NCBI RefSeq assembly: GCF_016745235.1
Contig: NZ_JAELVM010000003.1
Span: 1,054,001-1,118,000, forward strand
Direction: 5' to 3'
DNA from: Chryseobacterium endalhagicum
GTDB taxonomy: Bacteria; Bacteroidota; Bacteroidia; Flavobacteriales; Weeksellaceae
Length of the DNA stretch: 64,000 nt
Position 1 is the stretch's first letter. Each line of letters begins with the position of its first letter. Positions 2,420-18,671 of this stretch are shown piece by piece. The notes below the pieces were generated by a model. It was given only the letters and a program-made list of their open reading frames with translations, was not told the origin of the DNA and ran no database searches. A program made the translations under genes and the position numbers.

Positions 2420-3823
2420 ATGACAGAAACAAGCCCGCAACAGACCTCTGTAAAAAAAATACTTCCACTCATCCTGGCTACTGCTATCTTTATGCAGATG
2501 CTGGATTCCACCATTCTGAACACTTCCCTGCCCTCAATCGCCAAGGATCTTCATGAATCTCCGCTGAATATGCAGAATGCTATCATCAGTTATGTTCTGA
2601 CTTTAGCCGTTTTCATGCCTGCGAGCGGTTTTCTGGCGGACCGGTTCGGAACTAAAAAAGTATTTATTTTTTCACTGGTTCTTTTCAGTCTGGGTTCACT
2701 GTTCTGCTCTATGTCTCAAAATCTTACGCATCTGGTGATTTCAAGAGTTATTCAGGGGGTTGGAGGAAGTTTGATGACTCCCGTAGGAAAACTGGCCCTC
2801 ATTAAAACTTTTGATAAAAGCGAACTGCTTAAAGCCATGAATTTCGCTATCATCCCTGCCTTAATAGGCCCTGTACTGGGTCCACTGGTCGGAGGTTATA
2901 TGGTAGATTATCTTTCCTGGCACTGGATCTTTCTGATTAACATTCCAATAGGAATTCTAGGAATTATTTTAGGCTTAAAATATATGCCCGATTACAAATC
3001 CGCCGATGTCGATTTCGATCTGAAAGGGTTCCTGATTTTTGCAGCAGCATCGCTTCTGTTATCCATTTCTCTGGAACTCTTCGGAGATATGCAGAATATC
3101 AGTCCGGTTCTTTTTGTTTTCATTCTTGGTTTCCTGTTCCTCTACTATTATTACAAACATGCCAAACGGGGAGGAAATCCTATCTTTCCGCTGGATCTGT
3201 TTCAGGTAAGAACTTTCCGTGTTGGAATTGTGGGGAATCTGGCTACCCGGCTGGGGATCAGTTCCGTTCCGTTGCTGCTTCCTTTGATGATTCAGATTGC
3301 TTATAAACAATCTGCCGTAACTTCGGGCTGGATCATTGCTCCCATGGCGCTGACCGCCATATTCGGAAAATCATCGGTGATTAAAATTCTGGATAAATAC
3401 GGGTACCGCCAGACTTTAATGGTGAATACCTTCATCATCGGAACCCTGATCTGTCTTCTTGCCATTCCTGATATCCATACCAATTTATACTGGTTCGTTC
3501 CCATTATTGCCATTCTGGGGTTCTTCAATTCCATTCAGTTTACTTCTATGAATACCATTTCTATTGCTGATCTCAGGAATTTCCAGACCAGCAGCGGTAA
3601 TTCACTGATCTCCGTCAACCAGCAGCTCGCCATCGGGTTTGGGATTGCTTTCGGATTGATTGTTTTAAAATTATTTGAAAATTCAGACCTTATCGAAGGT
3701 GAAATTCACAACGCATTCCGCTATACTTTCCTTACTGTAGGCATATTGACCATCATCTCCGGTTTTGTGTTCAGAAGACTTCATATTTCAGATGGGAAAA
3801 ATATGAAATCGAAGGAGGAGTAA
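2420..3823 (+). CDS. MFS transporter, DHA2 (14-TM drug:H+ antiporter) family, MdtD-like
   Basis: This is an inner-membrane proton-coupled exporter of 467 residues, a usual length for 14-helix DHA2 members. Visible family motifs are LDSTILNTSLP in helix 1 (residues 28-38), motif A GFLADRFGTKK in the loop between helices 2 and 3 (70-80), VISRVIQGVGG in helix 4, and the antiporter motif C region GPVLGPLVGG (150-159). The N-terminal half resembles E. coli MdtD (YegB) more than EmrB. The substrate cannot be read from sequence. No adaptor or outer-membrane factor is next to it, so it probably works alone. ATG start at 2420. Confidence 0.9.
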   Translation: MTETSPQQTSVKKILPLILATAIFMQMLDSTILNTSLPSIAKDLHESPLNMQNAIISYVLTLAVFMPASGFLADRFGTKKVFIFSLVLFSLGSLFCSMSQNLTHLVISRVIQGVGGSLMTPVGKLALIKTFDKSELLKAMNFAIIPALIGPVLGPLVGGYMVDYLSWHWIFLINIPIGILGIILGLKYMPDYKSADVDFDLKGFLIFAAASLLLSISLELFGDMQNISPVLFVFILGFLFLYYYYKHAKRGGNPIFPLDLFQVRTFRVGIVGNLATRLGISSVPLLLPLMIQIAYKQSAVTSGWIIAPMALTAIFGKSSVIKILDKYGYRQTLMVNTFIIGTLICLLAIPDIHTNLYWFVPIIAILGFFNSIQFTSMNTISIADLRNFQTSSGNSLISVNQQLAIGFGIAFGLIVLKLFENSDLIEGEIHNAFRYTFLTVGILTIISGFVFRRLHISDGKNMKSKEE

Positions 3824-3906
3824 GACAAAAAGGCTGATAAGCAAATTTGCTTTCTTCGCCCCTTTCGAACTTAACACAGATCAATGCCCCCGATTGCCCG
3901 CTTCAC

Positions 3907-3914
3907 TATATTTG
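3907..3914 (+). promoter_or_regulatory. -7 element TATATTTG before pirin gene
   Basis: TAnnTTTG match 21 nt upstream of the ATG at 3936. An upstream in-frame TTG (3894) lies before this element, so initiation there is unlikely. Confidence 0.5.
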
Positions 3915-3935
3915 TTATATAAAATTCACAATATT

Positions 3936-4811
3936 ATGACAGCGAAAAAAGTAGAAATCGTAGTATCACCAAGACCTGCACATTTTGTAGGCGATGGTTT
4001 CAGGGTTCATAATTTTATACCAGGGGTACAAGGTTTGGACATGAAAAGAATGGACCCGTTCATTATGCTTGATTACAACTCAAAATTCCATTTCAACGGT
4101 TCTGAAAGACCCAGAGGTGTAGGCGTTCATCCTCACAGGGGTTTTGAAACCGTAACGATAGCTTATCAGGGTAAAGTAGAGCACCACGACAGCTCAGGAG
4201 GCGGCGGCGTTATCGGAGAAGGCGACGTACAGTGGATGACCGCGGCAAAAGGCGTTCTTCACAAAGAATACCATGAAACCGAGTGGTCTAAAAAAGGCGG
4301 TATTTTCCAGATGGTTCAGCTTTGGGTCAATCTTCCGGCCAAAGATAAAATGAGCCAGCCCAAATACCAAGCGATAGAAAATTCAGCTATGGAGCGTGTG
4401 GATCTGGGTGAAAATGGTTTTGTGGAGATCATTGCAGGAGAATATAGCGGTCACAAAGGTCCGGCAGAAACTTTTACACCACTGAATATGATGAATGCCA
4501 AATTAAAATCCGGTGGAAAAGCTGAGTTCAGTTTTCCGGCCCGTTTTAATACAGCGGCATTGGTCATTGAGGGGAGCATTATGGTAAACGGAGAAGAAAA
4601 AGCAAAATCAGATCATCTGGTTTTATTTAAAAATGAAGGCGATACATTCACCATAGAAGCTCTTGAAGATGCTGTTGTACTCATCATCAGCGGAGAGCCT
4701 ATTAATGAACCGATCTATCCGCATGGCCCTTTCGTGATGAATTCCCGGGAAGAAATCATGCAGGCGTTTGAAGATTTCAATACCGGAAAGTTCGGCTATC
4801 TGGAAGATTGA
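3936..4811 (+). CDS. Pirin family protein (cupin)
   Basis: This is a bicupin pirin of about 291 residues. The N-terminal cupin carries the metal-binding set HPH (H65, H67) and, after a conserved GDVQWMTAAKGVLHKE stretch, H109 and E111, matching the two-His, His, Glu iron site of pirins. Characterised bacterial pirins act as quercetinases or as redox-sensing partners of other proteins; the substrate here is unknown. The ATG at 3936 is preferred to an upstream TTG because it starts just before the conserved pirin N-terminus and follows a promoter octamer. A second pirin is encoded at 5416-6315. The two are clearly paralogous in the metal motif but otherwise diverged. Confidence 0.9.
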   Translation: MTAKKVEIVVSPRPAHFVGDGFRVHNFIPGVQGLDMKRMDPFIMLDYNSKFHFNGSERPRGVGVHPHRGFETVTIAYQGKVEHHDSSGGGGVIGEGDVQWMTAAKGVLHKEYHETEWSKKGGIFQMVQLWVNLPAKDKMSQPKYQAIENSAMERVDLGENGFVEIIAGEYSGHKGPAETFTPLNMMNAKLKSGGKAEFSFPARFNTAALVIEGSIMVNGEEKAKSDHLVLFKNEGDTFTIEALEDAVVLIISGEPINEPIYPHGPFVMNSREEIMQAFEDFNTGKFGYLED

Positions 4812-5415: not shown

Positions 5416-6315
5416 ATGTCAAATATCGGACTTATCATAGAAGAAAAAGCAGCAGATATAGGAAATTTCCTGGTGGGAAGGCTTCTTCCGTTCCGCGAAA
5501 AAAGAGCAGTGGGACCTTTTGTTTTCATTGATCATATGGGACCGTCTGAACTGAAGGATTACCAGAACCTTGATGTTCCGCCGCATCCGCATATCGGATT
5601 ATCTACTTTAACCTATCTTCTGGAAGGATCTATTTTTCACAGAGACAGCATCGGAAGTGCTGTTGAAATCAAACCGGGCGCTGTGAACTGGATGACAGCC
5701 GGAAAAGGCGTTGTACATTCCGAAAGAACCCCTGAATATTTAAGACACAGCGACAAGCGGCTTCATGGGTTTCAGATCTGGGTAGGCTTACCAAAGCATC
5801 TGGAGCAGACCGAGCCCAGTTTCCATCATATTGAAGCGGATGAAATCCCGGTATGGGAAGAAGACGGAGTTCAGTATAAACTGATTGCCGGAGAAGCATT
5901 CGGAAGAAGCTCTGCAGTTCCTGTTCACAGTAAATTATTTTTTATTGAGATCAAAACTAAAGAAGCGAAGAAAATAAGCATAGGAAAAGATCTTTACGGC
6001 GAAGCAGCCATGTATGTTCTGGACGGAACGGTTTCCACGGATGGAAATTCTTACGGTTCAAAACAGCTGATGATTGCTAAAGACACGAAACTTTGCGAAT
6101 TTGAAATGAGTGAAAACGGAACGGTATATCTTTTCGGCGGCGAGCCGTTTGAGGAGGAGCGTTTTATATTCTGGAACTTCGTGAATTCAGATAAGGAACT
6201 GCTGGATCAGGCCAAAGTCAACTGGAATGATCAGAATCACGATGCATTTCCTCAGGTTCCGGGCGACGACAAAGAATATGTTCCACTTCCAAAGGCCATT
6301 TTAAACAGAAAATAA
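5416..6315 (+). CDS. Pirin family protein (second paralogue)
   Basis: This pirin has 299 residues. The N-terminal cupin metal ligands are visible as H57 and H59 in PPHPHIGLSTLTYLLEG and H101 and E103 in MTAGKGVVHSERT. LHGFQIWVGLP after the first cupin is typical of the subgroup that includes E. coli YhhW. It lies 57 bp after the frameshifted GNAT gene and 22 bp before an NADPH-FMN reductase gene, in the same orientation. The operon setting suggests a role in handling oxidised aromatics or redox stress, which is an inference. Confidence 0.9.
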   Translation: MSNIGLIIEEKAADIGNFLVGRLLPFREKRAVGPFVFIDHMGPSELKDYQNLDVPPHPHIGLSTLTYLLEGSIFHRDSIGSAVEIKPGAVNWMTAGKGVVHSERTPEYLRHSDKRLHGFQIWVGLPKHLEQTEPSFHHIEADEIPVWEEDGVQYKLIAGEAFGRSSAVPVHSKLFFIEIKTKEAKKISIGKDLYGEAAMYVLDGTVSTDGNSYGSKQLMIAKDTKLCEFEMSENGTVYLFGGEPFEEERFIFWNFVNSDKELLDQAKVNWNDQNHDAFPQVPGDDKEYVPLPKAILNRK

Positions 6316-6337
6316 CAGCCTTACAGATTATTCAACC

Positions 6338-6877
6338 ATGAAAATATTAGCATTTGCAGGAAGCTCATCCTCTACATCCATCAACAGGGAGCTGGTAAAA
6401 TTTGTTCTGAAAGATTTTCAGGACGAGGAAATCAATCTGATTGATCTGAATGATTTCACCATGCCCGTTTTTTCTGTAGACCTTGAAAAGAAAGGATTTC
6501 CGGATGAAGCCCATCATTTTTTAAAGGAAATTGAAGCATGTGACGTGATCATCTGCTCTCTTGCAGAGCACAACCGGTCTTACAGCGCAGCTTTTAAAAA
6601 TGTCTTCGACTGGTCGTCCAGGATCAATGTAAAAGTTTTTCAGAACAAACCCATGCTTTTGATGAGTACATCTCCCGGAGGCTATGGCGGCGGTAATGTG
6701 ATGAATACGGCAAAAACATTTTTCCCCCAGTTTGCAGCAGATATTAAGGATACGTTCTCGCTTCCCAAGTTTTATGAAAATTTTGATCTTGAAAGCGGCG
6801 TGATCAATCCGGATATGCTTAAAGATCTCAAAGACAAGATCGCACGCTTTAAAAATGAAATAAAAACCAATGACTAA
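6338..6877 (+). CDS. NAD(P)H-dependent FMN reductase family protein
   Basis: This is a flavodoxin-like oxidoreductase of 179 residues. The FMN phosphate-binding loop is AGSSSSTSINRELV (residues 7-20), followed by CSLAEHNRSYSAAFKNVFDW, the usual second flavin-contact region, and LLMSTSPGGYGGGNVM. It likely reduces FMN, quinones or azo compounds with NADPH in the cytoplasm. Its 3' end overlaps the next gene by 8 nt, indicating translational coupling. Confidence 0.9.
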   Translation: MKILAFAGSSSSTSINRELVKFVLKDFQDEEINLIDLNDFTMPVFSVDLEKKGFPDEAHHFLKEIEACDVIICSLAEHNRSYSAAFKNVFDWSSRINVKVFQNKPMLLMSTSPGGYGGGNVMNTAKTFFPQFAADIKDTFSLPKFYENFDLESGVINPDMLKDLKDKIARFKNEIKTND

Positions 6878-7448
6878 GGGAAGACTTGAGGCTTTCAGTG
6901 ATGGCGTTATGGCGATCATCATTACCATTATGGTCCTTGAACTTAAGGTACCTGAAGGAAGCAGCTGGATGAGCCTCAAACCTTTACTTCCCAAGTTTCT
7001 TGCTTATATTTTCAGCTTTATTTATGTAGGAATCTACTGGAACAACCATCATCATATGTTTCAGGCTGTAAAAAAGGTGAACGGAAGCATCCTGTGGGCC
7101 AATCTTCATCTGCTGTTCTGGCTTTCATTAATGCCCATCGCAACAGAATGGATCGGAGCCACGCATTTTGCAGAAAATCCGGTCGCGGCGTACGGCATAT
7201 GCCTGATCATGTCTGCAGTAGCCTATACGATTATGGAGCATCTGATTGTACAGTGTGAGGGTGAAAATTCCAGATTAAAGGAAGCGATACATTCAAAGTT
7301 TAAAGAATATATCTCCATCATATTTTATGTCCTCGGAATCGCTGTTTCATTTTTTTATCCTTATATTGCCATAGGTTTTTATTATCTCGTGGCTCTGATA
7401 TGGCTGATTCCGGACAAAAGAATCGAAAAATTACTAAAAGAAGATTAA
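6870..7448 (+). CDS. TMEM175 family (DUF1211) potassium channel-like membrane protein
   Basis: This protein of 192 residues has about six hydrophobic segments. The N-terminal signature RLEAFSDGVMAIIITIMVLEL (positions 5-25) contains the R..xFSDG motif of helix 1 that lines the pore in TMEM175 channels, followed by YVGIYWNNHHHMF. Bacterial members form tetramers of a single six-helix unit, and this length fits. It starts inside the reductase gene (8-nt overlap) and ends 1 nt before the YjdI-like gene. What a K+ channel does in a redox operon is not evident from sequence. Confidence 0.88.
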   Translation: MTKGRLEAFSDGVMAIIITIMVLELKVPEGSSWMSLKPLLPKFLAYIFSFIYVGIYWNNHHHMFQAVKKVNGSILWANLHLLFWLSLMPIATEWIGATHFAENPVAAYGICLIMSAVAYTIMEHLIVQCEGENSRLKEAIHSKFKEYISIIFYVLGIAVSFFYPYIAIGFYYLVALIWLIPDKRIEKLLKED

Positions 7449-11403: not shown

Positions 11404-12255
11404 ATGAGTAAAAGTATCGAAGAGTTAAAATCTCTTACTACGCAGATCAGAAGAGACATTTTAAGAATGGTTCACGCTGTAAATTCAGGTCACCCGGGCG
11501 GAAGTTTAGGTTGTACGGAATATTTCACAGCGCTTTACGGAAAGGTGATGAACTACAGTCTGCCTTTCACTATGGAGGGGAAAAATGAGGATCATTTTTA
11601 TCTTTCAAACGGGCATATTTCACCGGTTTTCTATTCTACTTTAGCGAGATTTGGCTTTTTTCCTGTAGATGAACTGAGAACTTTCAGAAAACTGGATTCA
11701 AGACTTCAGGGACACCCAACTACTCATGAGGGTCTTCCGGGAATCAGAATCGCTTCAGGATCTCTTGGTCAGGGACTTTCTGTAGCACTTGGAGTAGCTC
11801 AGGGTAAAAAACTGGATGGCGACCCATCTCTTGTTTACACGCTTCACGGTGATGGTGAACTTCAGGAAGGTCAGGTTTGGGAAGCTTTGATGTATGCTGC
11901 GGCTAAAAAAGTTGATAATATTATTTCAACGATTGACTACAACGGGCGCCAGATCGACGGAGATACGGATGATGTATTGAGCCTTGGAAATCTTCATGCT
12001 AAACTTGAAGCATTCGGATGGACTGTTCTGGAAGAGAAAAACGGTAATGATCTTGAAGCGGTAATCGCGATCCTTGAGAAAGCAAAAACTGAAACCGGAA
12101 AAGGAAAACCTGTAGTGATCATTCTTCATACAGAAATGGGTTACGGTGTAGATTATATGATGGGTTCTCATGCATGGCACGGAAAAGCTCCTAATGATGA
12201 GCAGCTTGACAATGCATTTAAGCAGCTTTATCTGGAAGCTCCGGCAGACTATTAA
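11404..12255 (+). CDS. tkt: Transketolase, N-terminal subunit
   Basis: This is the thiamine-pyrophosphate half of a two-subunit transketolase, a pentose phosphate pathway enzyme moving two-carbon units between sugar phosphates. It has 283 residues. Key features are SGHPGGSLGCTEY (28-40) and the TPP/Mg motif from GDG (149-151) to N180 in STIDYNGRQ. The C-terminal pyrimidine-binding half is the next gene. Split transketolases are usual in Bacteroidota and archaea. Confidence 0.95.
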   Translation: MSKSIEELKSLTTQIRRDILRMVHAVNSGHPGGSLGCTEYFTALYGKVMNYSLPFTMEGKNEDHFYLSNGHISPVFYSTLARFGFFPVDELRTFRKLDSRLQGHPTTHEGLPGIRIASGSLGQGLSVALGVAQGKKLDGDPSLVYTLHGDGELQEGQVWEALMYAAAKKVDNIISTIDYNGRQIDGDTDDVLSLGNLHAKLEAFGWTVLEEKNGNDLEAVIAILEKAKTETGKGKPVVIILHTEMGYGVDYMMGSHAWHGKAPNDEQLDNAFKQLYLEAPADY

Positions 12256-12257
12256 TT

Positions 12258-12317
12258 ATAAATGATAAATTTTCACCGATAAATGATGAGATTATAAAGT
12301 TTAAACCTATCATTTAT
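12258..12317. repeat. Intercistronic inverted repeat ATAAATGATA/TATCATTTAT
   Basis: Ten-base arms at 12258-12267 and 12308-12317 flank a spacer that holds a further copy of ATAAATGAT. It lies between the two transketolase subunit genes and could form a stem in the shared transcript. Confidence 0.45.
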
Positions 12318-12340
12318 CACGACCAAAAACTTTAGTAAAA

Positions 12341-13288
12341 ATGAAATATACATATACAGAAAAAAAGGATACACGTTCAGGTTTCGGAGCGGGATTAGCA
12401 GAACTGGCTGACAAAAATCCTAATGTAGTAGCGCTTTGTGCAGACCTTATCGGTTCTTTGAAAATGGAGAAATTCATTGAAAAGGCACCGGAAAGATTCT
12501 TCCAGATTGGAATTGCAGAGGCTAACATGATGGGGATTGCAGCAGGTTTGAGCATTACCGGAAAAATTCCTTTTACCGGAACTTTTGCCAACTTTTCTAC
12601 TTCAAGAGTGTATGACCAGATCCGTCAGTCTATCGCTTATTCAGGGAAAAATGTAAAGATCTGTGCATCTCACGCCGGACTTACATTAGGTGAAGACGGA
12701 GCTACCCACCAGGTTCTGGAAGATATCGGGATGATGAAAATGCTTCCGGGTATGACGGTTATCAACCCATGTGACTACAACCAGACGAAAGCGGCTACTA
12801 TTGCTATTGCTGAGCACGATGGTCCTGTATATTTAAGATTCGGAAGACCTACAGTTCCTGTATTTATCCCTGAAGATATGCCTTTCGAGATCGGAAAAGG
12901 AATCCTGCTTCAGGAAGGTACTGATGTAACGATTGTTGCCACAGGACACCTGGTATGGGAATCTCTTGTAGCGGCTGATGAGCTTGAAAAAGAAGGGATC
13001 TCTTGTGAAGTGATCAACATCCACACGATCAAACCTTTAGACGAGGAAATCATCATTAAATCTGTTGAAAAAACCGGAAAGATCGTTACTGCTGAAGAGC
13101 ACAACTATCTGGGTGGTTTAGGAGAGTCTGTCGCGGGAATGCTTGCAAGAAAAAGACCTACAAGACAGGAATTTGTTGCTGTAAATGATACTTTCGGAGA
13201 ATCTGCTACGCCAGCGGAATTGATGAAGAAATACAAGATTGATGCTGCGGCTGTAAAAGAAGCTGTAAAAAGAATCTTAGCGAACTAA
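12341..13288 (+). CDS. tkt: Transketolase, C-terminal subunit
   Basis: This subunit has 315 residues and contains the pyrimidine-binding and C-terminal transketolase domains. The catalytic Glu that activates TPP is E60 in [38 protein letters not shown] is the conserved active-site loop. The gene follows the N-terminal subunit by 85 bp in the same orientation and is closed by a strong terminator, so the pair forms one operon. Confidence 0.95.
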
Positions 13289-15029: not shown

Positions 15030-15179
15030 CCTTTTGTACAAAAGGAATATCAGAATATTTGTCCTGTGATGCAATCCTATCGGTTCATCCGCTTTATTTT
15101 AGAATTTTTAATTAATAAAATTTTCCATTAAAAGCTTTTTAAAGATTCATTTACCTATGTACAAACCTGTGTACAAACC
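15030..15179. promoter_or_regulatory. TGTACAAA palindrome and direct repeats upstream of the RiPP operon
   Basis: CCTTTTGTACAAAAGG (15030-15045) is a perfect 16-bp palindrome. TGTACAAACC occurs twice, at 15158-15167 and 15170-15179, 12 bp apart. All three share the core TGTACAAA and lie 57-206 bp upstream of the predicted -7 element. They look like operator sites for a dimeric regulator, which is an inference. The rest of the 470-bp gap between 14905 and 15375 is AT-rich with no credible gene. Confidence 0.5.
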
Positions 15180-15235
15180 CGAAAACTCACAAAAAATACG
15201 CATTATTACTCACAAAGATGTGATGTAATTATTTC

Positions 15236-15243
15236 TAGTTTTG
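15236..15243 (+). promoter_or_regulatory. -7 element TAGTTTTG of the grasp-with-spasm operon
   Basis: TAnnTTTG match that would give a leader of about 125 nt before the precursor ATG at 15376. It overlaps an in-frame TTG (15241), which makes that upstream TTG an unlikely start for the precursor. No clear -33 element is seen. Confidence 0.45.
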
Positions 15244-15375
15244 AAACCATCAATGTTGATTGTCTGTTCGGCAGATCCGCCTGTAAGTGTACAGTACAGA
15301 AAGAAAAACAGAACAGCAAAACCCAATGCCAGGGATGATATGGCAGCACAAATATTAATTAAAAATTATTCAATT

Positions 15376-15570
15376 ATGAAAAAATTACAAGGAATGAAGA
15401 ACTTTTCTTCATTGGAAAACAAGAAGCTGAAAAATTCAAAAGTTATTTTTGGAGGTGGTACAAATGTTAGAACAACCCAAGAAACGGCTCCTAATGGTCA
15501 GCCTGGTAATACTGGTGATACCAGACTTCTGAATGATGGAAAACCTCATTCTACCATAACAGTTGATTAA
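15376..15570 (+). CDS. gwsA: Grasp-with-spasm RiPP precursor peptide
   Basis: This peptide of 64 residues is placed directly upstream of an ATP-grasp ligase and a SPASM protein. The N-terminal leader MKKLQGMKNFSSLENKKLKN is Lys-rich and has the FSSLE-KKL motif seen in Bacteroidota precursors of this class; it ends in SKVIFGGG (GGG at 26-28). The putative core (29-64) is rich in Thr, Asn, Asp and Gly with acidic and hydroxyl residues (TTQET, GDTR, STITVD) that could be joined by ester or amide links by the ATP-grasp enzyme. The ATG at 15376 is chosen over far upstream codons because these overlap the promoter. A hairpin terminator right behind the gene would make the precursor transcript more abundant than that of the enzymes. 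Confidence 0.85.
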   Translation: MKKLQGMKNFSSLENKKLKNSKVIFGGGTNVRTTQETAPNGQPGNTGDTRLLNDGKPHSTITVD

Positions 15571-15573
15571 ATA

Positions 15574-15598
15574 GGAGGGGGAATTTCCCCCTCTTTTT
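15574..15598 (+). terminator. Terminator/attenuator after the precursor gene
   Basis: GAGGGGG (15575-15581) pairs with CCCCCTC (15587-15593) around AATTT, followed by five T. With the next gene starting 23 nt later, it is best read as a partial terminator that sets precursor-to-enzyme stoichiometry. Confidence 0.85.
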
Positions 15599-15620
15599 CA
15601 TATAACAAAATACGTTGGTT

Positions 15621-16514
15621 ATGAAATACAGAATAATCTTTTTCCTGCCACTGATAATACTCACTCTTATTTCCTGCAAGAGTAAAAAGCTTAACTACAT
15701 CAATTATTACAATAAGGTTTATGCAATTGATAGTACTTTCAGGGTCGATAAAGATACTTTAGCAACCATAAGAAAGTACAGAAAACTGTTCAGGAAATTT
15801 CCTCCTGTACAGAATGAAAGAATGGAGGAATATGAAACTTACATCAGATATGCAGACCAATATCATAGAAATTTTGGTGGAAAAAGAAGTCTTGATAAAC
15901 TCATAGCACAGGCTGCTCCCAATTGGAAATACAAAAGGTTGGAACCTGATTTTTTTAAACTCTATAAAAAGTATGGAATTGACAGCATCACTGTTGAGCA
16001 AAAAGTTCTTCAATGGAAAAAAAGTTTGAACAAAACTCTGATAGATTCTTTTAGCATTGCATTTAAACGTGATCAGCATAATGACCGCGTTGGACCATAT
16101 GTTGAAATGAATGATCGGAAAAATGCAGAACTTCTGATCTGGACCTTTAAAAACTATGGATTTCCATCCAGACAGAAAATAGGTCTTTATGGAAACAATG
16201 AGCAGTTTATGTATATGGGAACCCTTCTCAATCATATGGCAGGAACAAAGCATTATGAATACTTCAAGACAAAATTACTGGAATATGTAAGATCCGGTGA
16301 GTGTACCCCAAGGGATTATATTGAGATGGTAGACAAATTCCAATATATTCATTATCTACATCCTATTTACGGAGTATATATGCATTATGACACGAATTTT
16401 AGTACTGAAGATTCTATAAGAATAAATCGCGACCGGCAAGCAGTAGGCTTTCCCACATTCAAACAGTCTTCAAAAATAACAAAAGACTTCCAAAGAAAAA
16501 TAAATAATCATTAA
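15621..16514 (+). CDS. Lipoprotein of unknown function in the RiPP locus
   Basis: This encodes about 297 residues. The N-terminus MKYRIIFFLPLIILTLISC is a lipoprotein signal with the lipobox LISC (C19), so the mature protein is anchored in a membrane, probably the outer one. The rest is Tyr- and Lys-rich and largely helical by pattern, with no domain I recognise. It starts 50 bp after the precursor stop and ends 5 bp before the ATP-grasp gene, so it belongs to the operon. A periplasmic or surface job (export, receptor or target of the modified peptide) is plausible but unproven. ATG at 15621 is preferred over a TTG two codons upstream. Confidence 0.8.
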   Translation: MKYRIIFFLPLIILTLISCKSKKLNYINYYNKVYAIDSTFRVDKDTLATIRKYRKLFRKFPPVQNERMEEYETYIRYADQYHRNFGGKRSLDKLIAQAAPNWKYKRLEPDFFKLYKKYGIDSITVEQKVLQWKKSLNKTLIDSFSIAFKRDQHNDRVGPYVEMNDRKNAELLIWTFKNYGFPSRQKIGLYGNNEQFMYMGTLLNHMAGTKHYEYFKTKLLEYVRSGECTPRDYIEMVDKFQYIHYLHPIYGVYMHYDTNFSTEDSIRINRDRQAVGFPTFKQSSKITKDFQRKINNH

Positions 16515-16519
16515 TTTAT

Positions 16520-17422
16520 ATGATCCTGATTATCTCTCAAAATAATGACATCACTACAACAGAAGTTATTAAATATCTTATTCAGATGAAGAAAAAATTT
16601 ATCCGTATTCATGAGGATGAATTTTTTGAGATAAAAACCCGTAGTAAGAAGATTTTTCTTGAAAGCAGCCGTAATACATTCTTCCTTGATGAAATAAAAA
16701 GTGTCTGGTACCGCAGAGGAGGATTAAATTTTAAAAGATTGAAATATACTAATCGTTCCATTCATTTGAATATGGCGGAGACACAGCACTGGCTTGAAGA
16801 CTATATCCGAAAGGTACTGGAATCCAAAAAAAGCATAAACAAAGAAAGTAACAGCGACGTTAATAAGCTTATCGTGCTGGACAAAGCAAAAGATATTGGA
16901 TTTGATGTTCCTGAATACTTTTTAGCAGAAAATACTGACCATGTAGAAATAGAAAAGACCATTATAAAAACATTGAATGGAAATGTTATGCTGGATGAGA
17001 TCAAAAAAAATGCCGGTGGTTTTATGTATACAGCTGTGGTTAAGGATCAGGAAGAAGGAAATTTTTTCATCACTTTTTTTCAAGAGAAGATTGAAAAAGA
17101 TTTCGAAATAAGAACGTTCTATTTAAATGGCCAATGCTGGTCTATGGCTATATTCTCACAAAATGATGCACAAACTCTGGTAGATTTCAGAAAATATAAT
17201 GAAATGAAACCCAACAGAAATGTTTCCTATCATCTTCCCTCTACTATTGAAAAAAAAATTCATTTGCTCATGCAGTCTTTGGATCTTAACTCCGGGTCAC
17301 TGGATTTTATAAAGAAAGGAGACAGATATTATTTCCTGGAGGTTAATCCAATTGGTCAGTTCATGGGACTTTCCAACACATGCAATGGTTTCCTCGAACA
17401 AAAAATAGCCGAATACTTATGA
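16520..17422 (+). CDS. gwsG: ATP-grasp peptide maturase, grasp-with-spasm system
   Basis: This ATP-dependent ligase of 300 residues is predicted to link side chains in the precursor peptide. The N-terminal half has the VWYRRGG motif (62-68) typical of MvdC/MvdD-like graspetide ligases. The ATP-grasp core shows a Lys/Gly region IKKNAGGFMYT (161-171), FFQEKIEKDFEIRTFYLNG (186-204) and the Mg2+ site with D262, E274 and N276 in SLDFIKKGDRYYFLEVNPIGQF. The stop overlaps the start of the 60-aa gene by 4 nt (ATGA). Its neighbours, a small precursor with a GG-type motif and a SPASM protein, fit the grasp-with-spasm arrangement known in Bacteroidota. Confidence 0.9.
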   Translation: MILIISQNNDITTTEVIKYLIQMKKKFIRIHEDEFFEIKTRSKKIFLESSRNTFFLDEIKSVWYRRGGLNFKRLKYTNRSIHLNMAETQHWLEDYIRKVLESKKSINKESNSDVNKLIVLDKAKDIGFDVPEYFLAENTDHVEIEKTIIKTLNGNVMLDEIKKNAGGFMYTAVVKDQEEGNFFITFFQEKIEKDFEIRTFYLNGQCWSMAIFSQNDAQTLVDFRKYNEMKPNRNVSYHLPSTIEKKIHLLMQSLDLNSGSLDFIKKGDRYYFLEVNPIGQFMGLSNTCNGFLEQKIAEYL

Positions 17423-17601
17423 AAAGACTTTATCACGAAAAAAATAAATTACCTCTTACGTTCAAATATATTGAAATCTTTAAAACCAAAAATGTAGGTA
17501 AAACCCATAGCAACATGTTATTTTTTGTACACAGTGAAAAGTACCAGACAGAACATCATGTAAGAGAAAAACCGCTAAAACCGCTTATAAGAATTTTATG
17601 A
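17419..17601 (+). CDS. 60-aa protein between the ATP-grasp and SPASM genes
   Basis: This encodes 60 residues (MKRLYHEKNKLPLTFKYIEI to PLKPLIRIL). It is basic, without Cys, signal peptide or membrane helix, and has several aromatic residues. Its ATG overlaps the gwsG stop (ATGA at 17419-17422) and its TGA overlaps the gwsS ATG (ATGA at 17598-17601), so it is positioned for coupled translation on both sides. A longer in-frame start at 17380 would lie inside gwsG and is less likely. I do not recognise the family. A role as leader-binding adaptor or carrier of the peptide is possible but only by position. Confidence 0.75.
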   Translation: MKRLYHEKNKLPLTFKYIEIFKTKNVGKTHSNMLFFVHSEKYQTEHHVREKPLKPLIRIL

Positions 17602-18671
17602 AATATTTTAATGTATTCAATAATATCCTCATAACTAAAGGAGCCACACGCATTTTAGTCTCTGATCTTCAAAGAAACTTTTCGGAACTGTACCCTTTGG
17701 AATTGTATGAAATTATAGGGGAACTGAAGAATAAGTCTATAGAAAATATCCTGAAAAATTATGATACAGAATCCATCCTATTCGTCCAGGAATATATTAA
17801 TTTATTGATTGAAAAAGAATACGGTTTCATAACGGAAGGAGATTGGGACAGGAATTTCCCGCCACTTTCTTATCAATTTTATGAACCCAATGAAATTTCT
17901 AATATCCTCATCGAAATTAATGACATTTCAGTTCTGGACAAAATCAAACAGGATGTAGAAAACCTTGGAGTGAAGCATCTTGTTATTTACAGTCATAAAA
18001 AACTTTCGCTTAGGGACTTCAAGGATATTGACTTAAAATTTAAAAGTTCAGTCTTAAACGGTATTGAAATGATCTCTCCTTTCCACGCTCATGTAGACCG
18101 AAAATTTATTGATTCTCTTCATCAAACCGTAGACAGAATTTATAATTTGGTATTTTATAATTGCTCAAAAACTCCGTTCAGACACAAACATGAATTCAGA
18201 TTCACCTTACAGTTCAGCCGTGAAAATCTCAAAATTTCCTCCTGCGGAAAAGTAGACCTGAAATATTTCAATACCAATATCTCAAAAGTTTCGGAAGCCA
18301 TCCATCATAATTCCTGCCTTCACAAAAAGATCGGAATAGATATTCACGGCAACATAAGAAACTGTCCGTTAATGCCTGAAAGCTATGGAAACATTAATGA
18401 TACCAGCCTGGAAGAAGCTTTAACCAAACCAGGATTCAGAAAATACTGGAATATCACCAAAGATCAGATAAATGTCTGCAAAGACTGCGAATTCCGGTAT
18501 ATCTGTACAGACTGCAGAGCCTACACGGAACGAAACCACAAAGACAGTGAGGGATTAGATATTTCCAAGCCTTTAAAATGCGGTTATGATCCTTATACGG
18601 GAAAATGGGAAGCGTGGAGTACAAATCCGCTAAAAAAAGAGGTTATCAGCTTCTACGGACAAAGCAGCTAA
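17598..18671 (+). CDS. gwsS: SPASM-domain peptide maturase, grasp-with-spasm system
   Basis: This encodes 357 residues. The C-terminal half has the full SPASM cysteine set for auxiliary 4Fe-4S clusters: C240, C256 after the GNIRN turn, then C294-x2-C297-x5-C303-x2-C306, and C328. No CxxxCxxC radical-SAM motif is present in the N-terminal part; the only other Cys are C189 and C216. Thus it is either a degenerate radical-SAM relative or a pure Fe-S/peptide-binding partner. It is translationally coupled to the 60-aa gene. It closes the operon; a membrane-protein gene follows on the other strand 20 bp away. Confidence 0.88.
   Translation: MKYFNVFNNILITKGATRILVSDLQRNFSELYPLELYEIIGELKNKSIENILKNYDTESILFVQEYINLLIEKEYGFITEGDWDRNFPPLSYQFYEPNEISNILIEINDISVLDKIKQDVENLGVKHLVIYSHKKLSLRDFKDIDLKFKSSVLNGIEMISPFHAHVDRKFIDSLHQTVDRIYNLVFYNCSKTPFRHKHEFRFTLQFSRENLKISSCGKVDLKYFNTNISKVSEAIHHNSCLHKKIGIDIHGNIRNCPLMPESYGNINDTSLEEALTKPGFRKYWNITKDQINVCKDCEFRYICTDCRAYTERNHKDSEGLDISKPLKCGYDPYTGKWEAWSTNPLKKEVISFYGQSS

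Follow-up and report, generated by a model that had tools for sequence, protein, structure and literature searches.

Organisation of the locus

We analysed a 64,000-nucleotide stretch of Chryseobacterium endalhagicum DNA (NCBI RefSeq assembly GCF_016745235.1, contig NZ_JAELVM010000003.1, positions 1,054,001 to 1,118,000 of the forward strand), referred to as the window and numbered from its first base. It carries a conserved operon of the already described grasp-with-spasm kind, predicted to make a graspetide, a small cross-linked peptide: five genes, all on the plus strand and arranged head to tail, between 15376 and 18671. The precursor, the ATP-grasp graspetide ligase and the SPASM protein are called GwsA, GwsG and GwsS, which are shorthand names of this analysis. 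GwsA (15376-15570, 64 residues) has a 28-residue leader ending in GGG (15376-15459) and a 36-residue core, which together with the stop codon occupies 15460-15570, is free of Cys and contains conserved acidic positions. It is followed by a 297-residue lipoprotein (15621-16514) with the lipobox LISCKS and, towards the C-terminus, a probable DUF6624 domain of divergent sequence that lies in the second half of the protein, by GwsG (16520-17422, 300 residues), by a 60-residue protein of the LPL family (17419-17601) and by GwsS (17598-18671, 357 residues), a SPASM protein without the radical S-adenosylmethionine (SAM) motif. The gene of the 60-residue protein overlaps both GwsG and GwsS by four bases (ATGA), the latter two genes being 176 bases apart. 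From this spacing and from the conservation described below, the five genes probably belong to one transcript. In the upstream sequence, 15030 to 15376, no gene of the five-gene set was seen.

An earlier note, written from the DNA alone, had placed a precursor with a GGG-ending leader, an ATP-grasp ligase and a SPASM protein together here and had named the locus grasp-with-spasm. Both statements hold: the five genes were confirmed on the plus strand, and in the family-model search that the note had proposed the ligase and the SPASM protein passed the NCBIfam cut-offs, GwsG with 348.4 bits against TIGR04192 (cut-off 230) and GwsS with 416.4 bits against TIGR04193 (cut-off 175). The GGG-ending leader was also correct, while the core had been quoted as 23 residues instead of 36.

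When GwsG was compared with solved structures by phmmer, the matches were 5ig9 (E 1.8e-16) and 5ig8 (9.8e-16), which we take to be MdnC and MdnB, followed by AMdnB 7m4s (1.5e-12) and CdnC 7mgv (3e-11). One GwsG loop is five residues shorter than the aligned part of 5ig9, presumably the leader-binding region of that enzyme; in ligases of other clades the same loop is longer and nearer to 5ig9.

Conservation of the gene set

Of 197 genomes from the taxonomic family, 54 had a TIGR04193 match (50 over the cut-off), as had 30 of 395 genomes sampled across the phylum (12 over the cut-off). Eighty stretches were taken for comparison, giving 81 loci with the window. Hidden Markov models recognised the ligase and the SPASM protein in all 81, the precursor in 47, and the lipoprotein and the LPL protein in 42 each. 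Because ligase and GwsS occur throughout and the other three genes in 42 to 47 loci, the full five-gene set marks the window's own clade. Within the 32 loci nearest in kind (the window plus L035-L065) all five genes were recognised in 28. The exceptions were L043, without an LPL match, L052 and L063, without a lipoprotein match, and L050, in which no precursor was recognised and whose stretch starts at the first base of its contig. Across the 197 genomes, 71 of 72 over-cut-off ligases had a GwsS match within 4 kb, the remaining one lying at 4.3 kb.

A second GwsS set was drawn from named genomes, including Chryseobacterium, Flavobacterium, Pedobacter, Kordia and other Bacteroidota. It holds 51 of 63 open reading frames (ORFs; at least 300 residues, plus strand) from 47 of 56 loci, and may share species with the first set of 85 GwsS proteins. 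A ligase was found no more than 4 kb upstream of GwsS for 50 of the 51 full-length proteins and a small ORF before GwsS for 48; 24 had a lipoprotein match in the locus. Four named-genome matches exceeded 70% identity, all of them from Chryseobacterium. Precursor, ATP-grasp and SPASM genes are thus co-conserved across related genomes, and the lack of co-occurrence that the note had named as counting against its reading did not occur.

The gene content agrees with published descriptions (PMC8939145, PMC13097080 and PMC9576775 are cited throughout from parts of their text). The window shares with grasp-with-spasm systems, 'branch 5' of PMC8939145, the over-cut-off ligase and SPASM families (TIGR04192 and TIGR04193), the lipoprotein and the LPL protein, with the LPL gene immediately before that of the SPASM protein, and no difference in kind was found. 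From the SPASM co-occurrence reported for that group, the operon perhaps corresponds to graspetide group 14 of PMC13097080.

GwsS lacks the radical-cluster motif

The cluster motif CX3CX2C was sought in GwsS proteins of at least 300 residues and occurred in none of the 85 of the first set, to which the window's protein belongs, and in 0 of 51 in the second set. Neither a radical SAM family nor a PqqD family was among the 25 of 44 Pfam families listed for GwsS members. A literature search with combined terms returned no account of a SPASM protein without the motif, which earlier SPASM-family surveys may note.

An AlphaFold2 model (predicted local distance difference test score, pLDDT, 89.9), from which the folds described here are taken, was based on an alignment of 64 of the 85 proteins. 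It predicts three parts in one chain: an RRE (leader-binding) domain at residues 2-80 (17601-17837), a radical-SAM-like half barrel of four beta/alpha units at about residues 95-210 (17880-18227), without the cluster motif, and a SPASM domain with eight Cys (18243-18608). The last of these is also recognised by PF13186, at 27.2 bits against a cut-off of 21.5, with a match in 47 of the 64 aligned members. With VIA-align, residues 2-78 of the modelled RRE superimposed on the leader-containing lasso peptide B1 protein 6jx3_B with Z 10.3 and a root-mean-square deviation (rmsd) of 1.9 over 77 aligned residues, and on leader-bound lasso B1 5v1v_A and 5v1u_A with Z 9.4. Foldseek gave probability 1.00 for 5v1v_A and 5v1u_B, with E values of only 0.019 and 0.059.

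The whole model, or the part outside the RRE, resembled radical SAM/SPASM enzymes: 5wgg (Z 11.2, rmsd 6.3), TigE 8vpo (Z 11.0, rmsd 7.6) and PqqE 6c8v (Z 10.8, rmsd 5.6), and 5why by Foldseek (E 1.8e-5). As in the RRE-radical SAM-SPASM maturases 5wgg, which we take to be CteB, and SuiB (5v1q), the predicted RRE, radical-SAM-like barrel and SPASM domain of GwsS lie in a single chain, and barrel and SPASM domain are as in PqqE. It differs from these maturases in lacking CX3CX2C and in having fewer barrel units than the six of radical SAM enzymes. A profile match to 7uek (OT3, E 6.3e-7) was set aside, this being a designed TIM barrel and no relative.

All eight SPASM cysteines (216, 240, 256, 294, 297, 303, 306 and 328) are present in 75 of the 85 proteins, the window's included. 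Cys 294, 297, 303 and 328 were found in all 85, whereas 216, 240, 256 and 306 are jointly absent from nine, and one further protein (L100, 1-1015) lacks 216 and 240. In the second set, 3 of 51 resemble the clade with the four losses by pattern match. If the auxiliary-cluster ligands are assigned as in anSME, the nine proteins have lost exactly one cluster whole and kept the other. That a clade has dispensed with this cluster suggests that no shared reaction depends on it.

The precursor and the case for radical chemistry

GwsA matched its family models through the leader only, with 31.9 bits against TIGR04139 (cut-off 40) and 21.4 bits against PF14406 (cut-off 25). We aligned 32 precursors from 31 of the 32 nearest loci; they had been picked by the leader motif, so the conservation of the leader partly reflects this selection. 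At the Asp48 position of the core all 32 precursors have Asp or Glu, at the Asp54 position 25 have an acidic residue, and the best Ser/Thr column, at Thr33, is filled in 23. Cys is present in 21 precursors, 17 of which have it at the position of the window's Thr46. The other 11, including the window's, have none, and their loci keep GwsS.

These cysteines bear on the possibility that GwsS tailors the peptide as a radical SAM/SPASM enzyme, adding a thioether or a carbon-carbon bond besides the ATP-grasp step. Such a role would fit the Cys-containing precursors, the resemblance of the model to radical SAM/SPASM enzymes and the NCBIfam name of the family, SPASM domain peptide maturase. It is also what PMC8939145 supposes, a paper that names TIGR04193 and treats its SPASM protein as a SPASM radical SAM enzyme. 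However, a radical SAM function was rejected on the missing CX3CX2C motif, absent from both, possibly overlapping, sets, and no radical SAM family appeared among the listed Pfam families. In addition, because the window's GwsA has no Cys, a thioether cannot be the role of GwsS here, and the 11 Cys-free precursors mean that it cannot be a general one. We regard radical tailoring by GwsS as very unlikely. Judged from sequence and model, GwsS resembles radical SAM enzymes but lacks the radical cluster, and it is best understood as a ligase partner equipped with an RRE.

The 60-residue LPL protein

The small protein carries KLPLTF at residues 10-15, and it fits by motif and place the LPL family of PMC8939145, always encoded directly upstream of the SPASM gene. 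It matched no Pfam or NCBIfam model. Pro12 is invariant in 38 of 38 aligned small proteins. A small ORF of 38-110 residues ends close to GwsS in 75 of 85 cases, abutting or overlapping it in 54. Two motif patterns, both chosen after looking, were counted in the 74 distinct small proteins. The hydrophobic-Pro-hydrophobic motif occurred in 46 (mean 9.0, maximum 16 in 200 shuffles) and a C-terminal KP-type motif in 33 (mean 1.5, maximum 6). In L052 (GwsS 6153-7268, minus strand) and L077 (GwsS 3378-4484, plus strand) part of the small ORF before GwsS resembles a precursor and ends in GG, a hint that precursors and the proteins encoded at the LPL position share an origin.

In the proposal of PMC8939145, the LPL protein acts in the manner of PqqD, as a chaperone placing the precursor in the SPASM protein. 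The regular occurrence of a small ORF before GwsS (75 of 85, and 48 of 51 in the second set) is in keeping with this proposal. However, GwsS is predicted to have an RRE, a PqqD-type fold, of its own, so that a second one looks redundant and the published analogy is weakened; the lack of any Pfam or NCBIfam match for the 60-residue protein also argues against it. We consider the chaperone role unlikely.

In microviridin systems the activating leader motif, PFFxRFL, sits on the substrate itself. The LPL protein may instead be a leader-like activator, with LPLTFKYI replacing this motif in trans and activating GwsG while the RRE of GwsS holds the GwsA leader. PMC8939145 likens the LPL motif to the Phh leader motif, which branch 5 precursors lack. 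The invariant Pro12, the excess of the post hoc hydrophobic-Pro-hydrophobic pattern over shuffled sequences and the GG stretches in L052 and L077 point the same way. Against it, 28 of the 74 small proteins are without the motif, both GG-bearing ones included. Given the shorter GwsG loop, a leader in trans would also have to dock differently from a microviridin-type leader, if the aligned 5ig9 region is the leader-binding one. We hold a leader in trans to be a tentative idea, somewhat improbable as it stands. The combined form of this idea, a split machine in which a cluster-less, radical-SAM-like iron-sulfur protein serves the ligase as leader-binding scaffold and the 60-residue protein supplies the leader-type activating motif in trans, we find doubtful.

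The lipoprotein

Of 50 candidate relatives of the lipoprotein, 48 were aligned, and a closer set of 35 was formed from these by omitting the more divergent ones. The lipobox Cys19 is present in 35 of 35. The window's protein itself had no Pfam or NCBIfam match, PF20329 (DUF6624) included, whereas a DUF6624 match was obtained for 8 of the 48 relatives (best E 5.9e-19) and, weakly, for 5 of the 35 closest (best E 0.0055). Comparison of the 35-member profile with a DUF6624 profile by hhalign gave 97.9% and E 4.7e-13 over residues 159-285. Several residues are kept as in DUF6624, namely His205 (35 of 35), Asp238 (33 of 35) and Arg272 (34 of 35); Gln residues shared by all nine aligned DUF6624 proteins (of 14 matches) have been lost in the window's clade. 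On these profile comparisons, the lipoprotein is probably a diverged member of DUF6624.

Its model is all helical (pLDDT 88) and matched no solved structure at E <= 0.001. The resemblances to TPR-type and other helical structures had Z 7.5 or less, which is no more than chance can give between helical proteins, and one TPR match (E 0.0066) was found among the 48 members; a TPR-like N-terminal part is a lead.

The protein fits the 'cluster 23' lipoprotein described in these loci in PMC8939145, to judge from its position, its lipobox and the His and Arg that are conserved. That paper does not use the name DUF6624, and the link is new here; in PMC13097080, DUF6624 is found near graspetide groups 18, 20, 23 and 42. 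The earlier note had spoken of two unexplained extra genes, but both the lipoprotein and the LPL protein already appear in PMC8939145. Its suggestion of a lipoprotein acting in export or recognition found no support, nothing being seen beyond the lipobox and the diverged DUF6624 part; the 60-residue protein, for which the note had suggested the same, may act in recognition.

At least two copies of the lipoprotein gene are present in L036, L039, L040, L041, L047, L054, L058, L060 and L062, and in most multi-copy loci one copy sits between the ligase and SPASM genes. The lipoprotein could be an immunity or sensing protein and not a maturation enzyme: it bears a lipobox, several loci carry two or more copies and the DUF6624 Gln residues are gone. 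The retained His205, Asp238 and Arg272, which suggest an active site, argue against this. An immunity or sensing function is a real possibility, if the lesser one.

Related loci and neighbouring genes

The same genome has a second grasp-with-spasm locus (L112, G000:C3:1195620-1197749). Its ligase scores 275.6 bits, over the TIGR04192 cut-off, and its GwsS falls below the TIGR04193 cut-off and lacks four of the eight SPASM cysteines. A pair of neighbouring ATP-grasp ligases of the graspetide type (L003 and L004, G000:C2:1040946-1042851) scores 114.6 and 136.7 bits, below the TIGR04192 cut-off, and tandem pairs of this kind recur in related genomes. A GwsS match with two internal stops in another genome (G185:C1:2677679-2678695) is perhaps a decaying copy. 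In the window, at 11404-13288, two neighbouring ORFs resemble by eye the N and C halves of a transketolase.

Discussion

Taken as a whole, we read the locus as a graspetide operon in which GwsS is a non-radical, leader-binding partner of GwsG, with a probability of about 0.62. We infer the side-chain links, leader binding, complex, order of steps, export and role of the lipoprotein as follows. GwsG, using ATP, would link the side chains of Ser or Thr in the GwsA core to those of acidic residues, the acceptors being most likely Asp48 and perhaps Asp54. GwsS would carry out no radical chemistry. Its N-terminal RRE would bind the GwsA leader, and its radical-SAM-like body, having lost the radical cluster and kept the SPASM iron-sulfur sites, would present the core to GwsG, which would thus depend on a partner. 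The LPL protein, whose gene overlaps both neighbours, would complete the GwsG-GwsS complex. Cleavage behind GGG would be followed by export of the peptide, probably through a C39-peptidase transporter whose gene lies elsewhere; a C39 domain (PF03412) was found in three ORFs of 733-742 residues in the genome, none of them on the window's contig. The DUF6624 lipoprotein would act on the peptide, or guard against it, outside the inner membrane.

Partner dependence of this kind has a precedent in the rosaritide system, where the graspetide ligase MirB requires MirC, a co-occurring non-ligase protein with a weakly RRE-like N-terminal domain (PMC13097080). According to the same source, MirC is a protein of the peptidyl-prolyl isomerase/chaperone type, whereas GwsS is radical-SAM-like with a SPASM domain, and the dependence is demonstrated for MirB and proposed for GwsG.

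Several observations weigh against this interpretation. The GwsS structure is an AlphaFold2 prediction, and its long alignments with radical SAM/SPASM enzymes have high rmsd values, 6.3 to 7.6 in the first three rows. NCBIfam names the family a maturase, and the eight SPASM cysteines in 75 of 85 proteins could mean that the clusters do chemistry. On the substrate side, GwsA is recognisable yet below its family cut-offs, no core position is Ser or Thr in all 32 precursors, and Cys-directed chemistry would explain the 17 cysteines at the Thr46 position. The export step is a guess, made from a search for the single domain PF03412.

The earlier note had called the product chemistry poorly known, and we likewise found no characterised grasp-with-spasm product in the literature searched, including passages of PMC9576775, which names graspetide groups 2, 7, 8 and 19 and one unnumbered group; earlier group surveys may hold one. 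New here are the missing motif of GwsS together with its RRE reading, the Cys-free precursor of the window, the probable DUF6624 identity of the lipoprotein and the weakening of the PqqD analogy.

Operons of the grasp-with-spasm kind occur frequently in this bacterial family. If GwsS is a cluster-less partner of the ligase, the expected product would be a plain graspetide, and expression in another host ought to bring along both GwsS and the LPL protein. The SPASM fold would then have a new role, as part of a radical-SAM-like scaffold devoid of its radical cluster.

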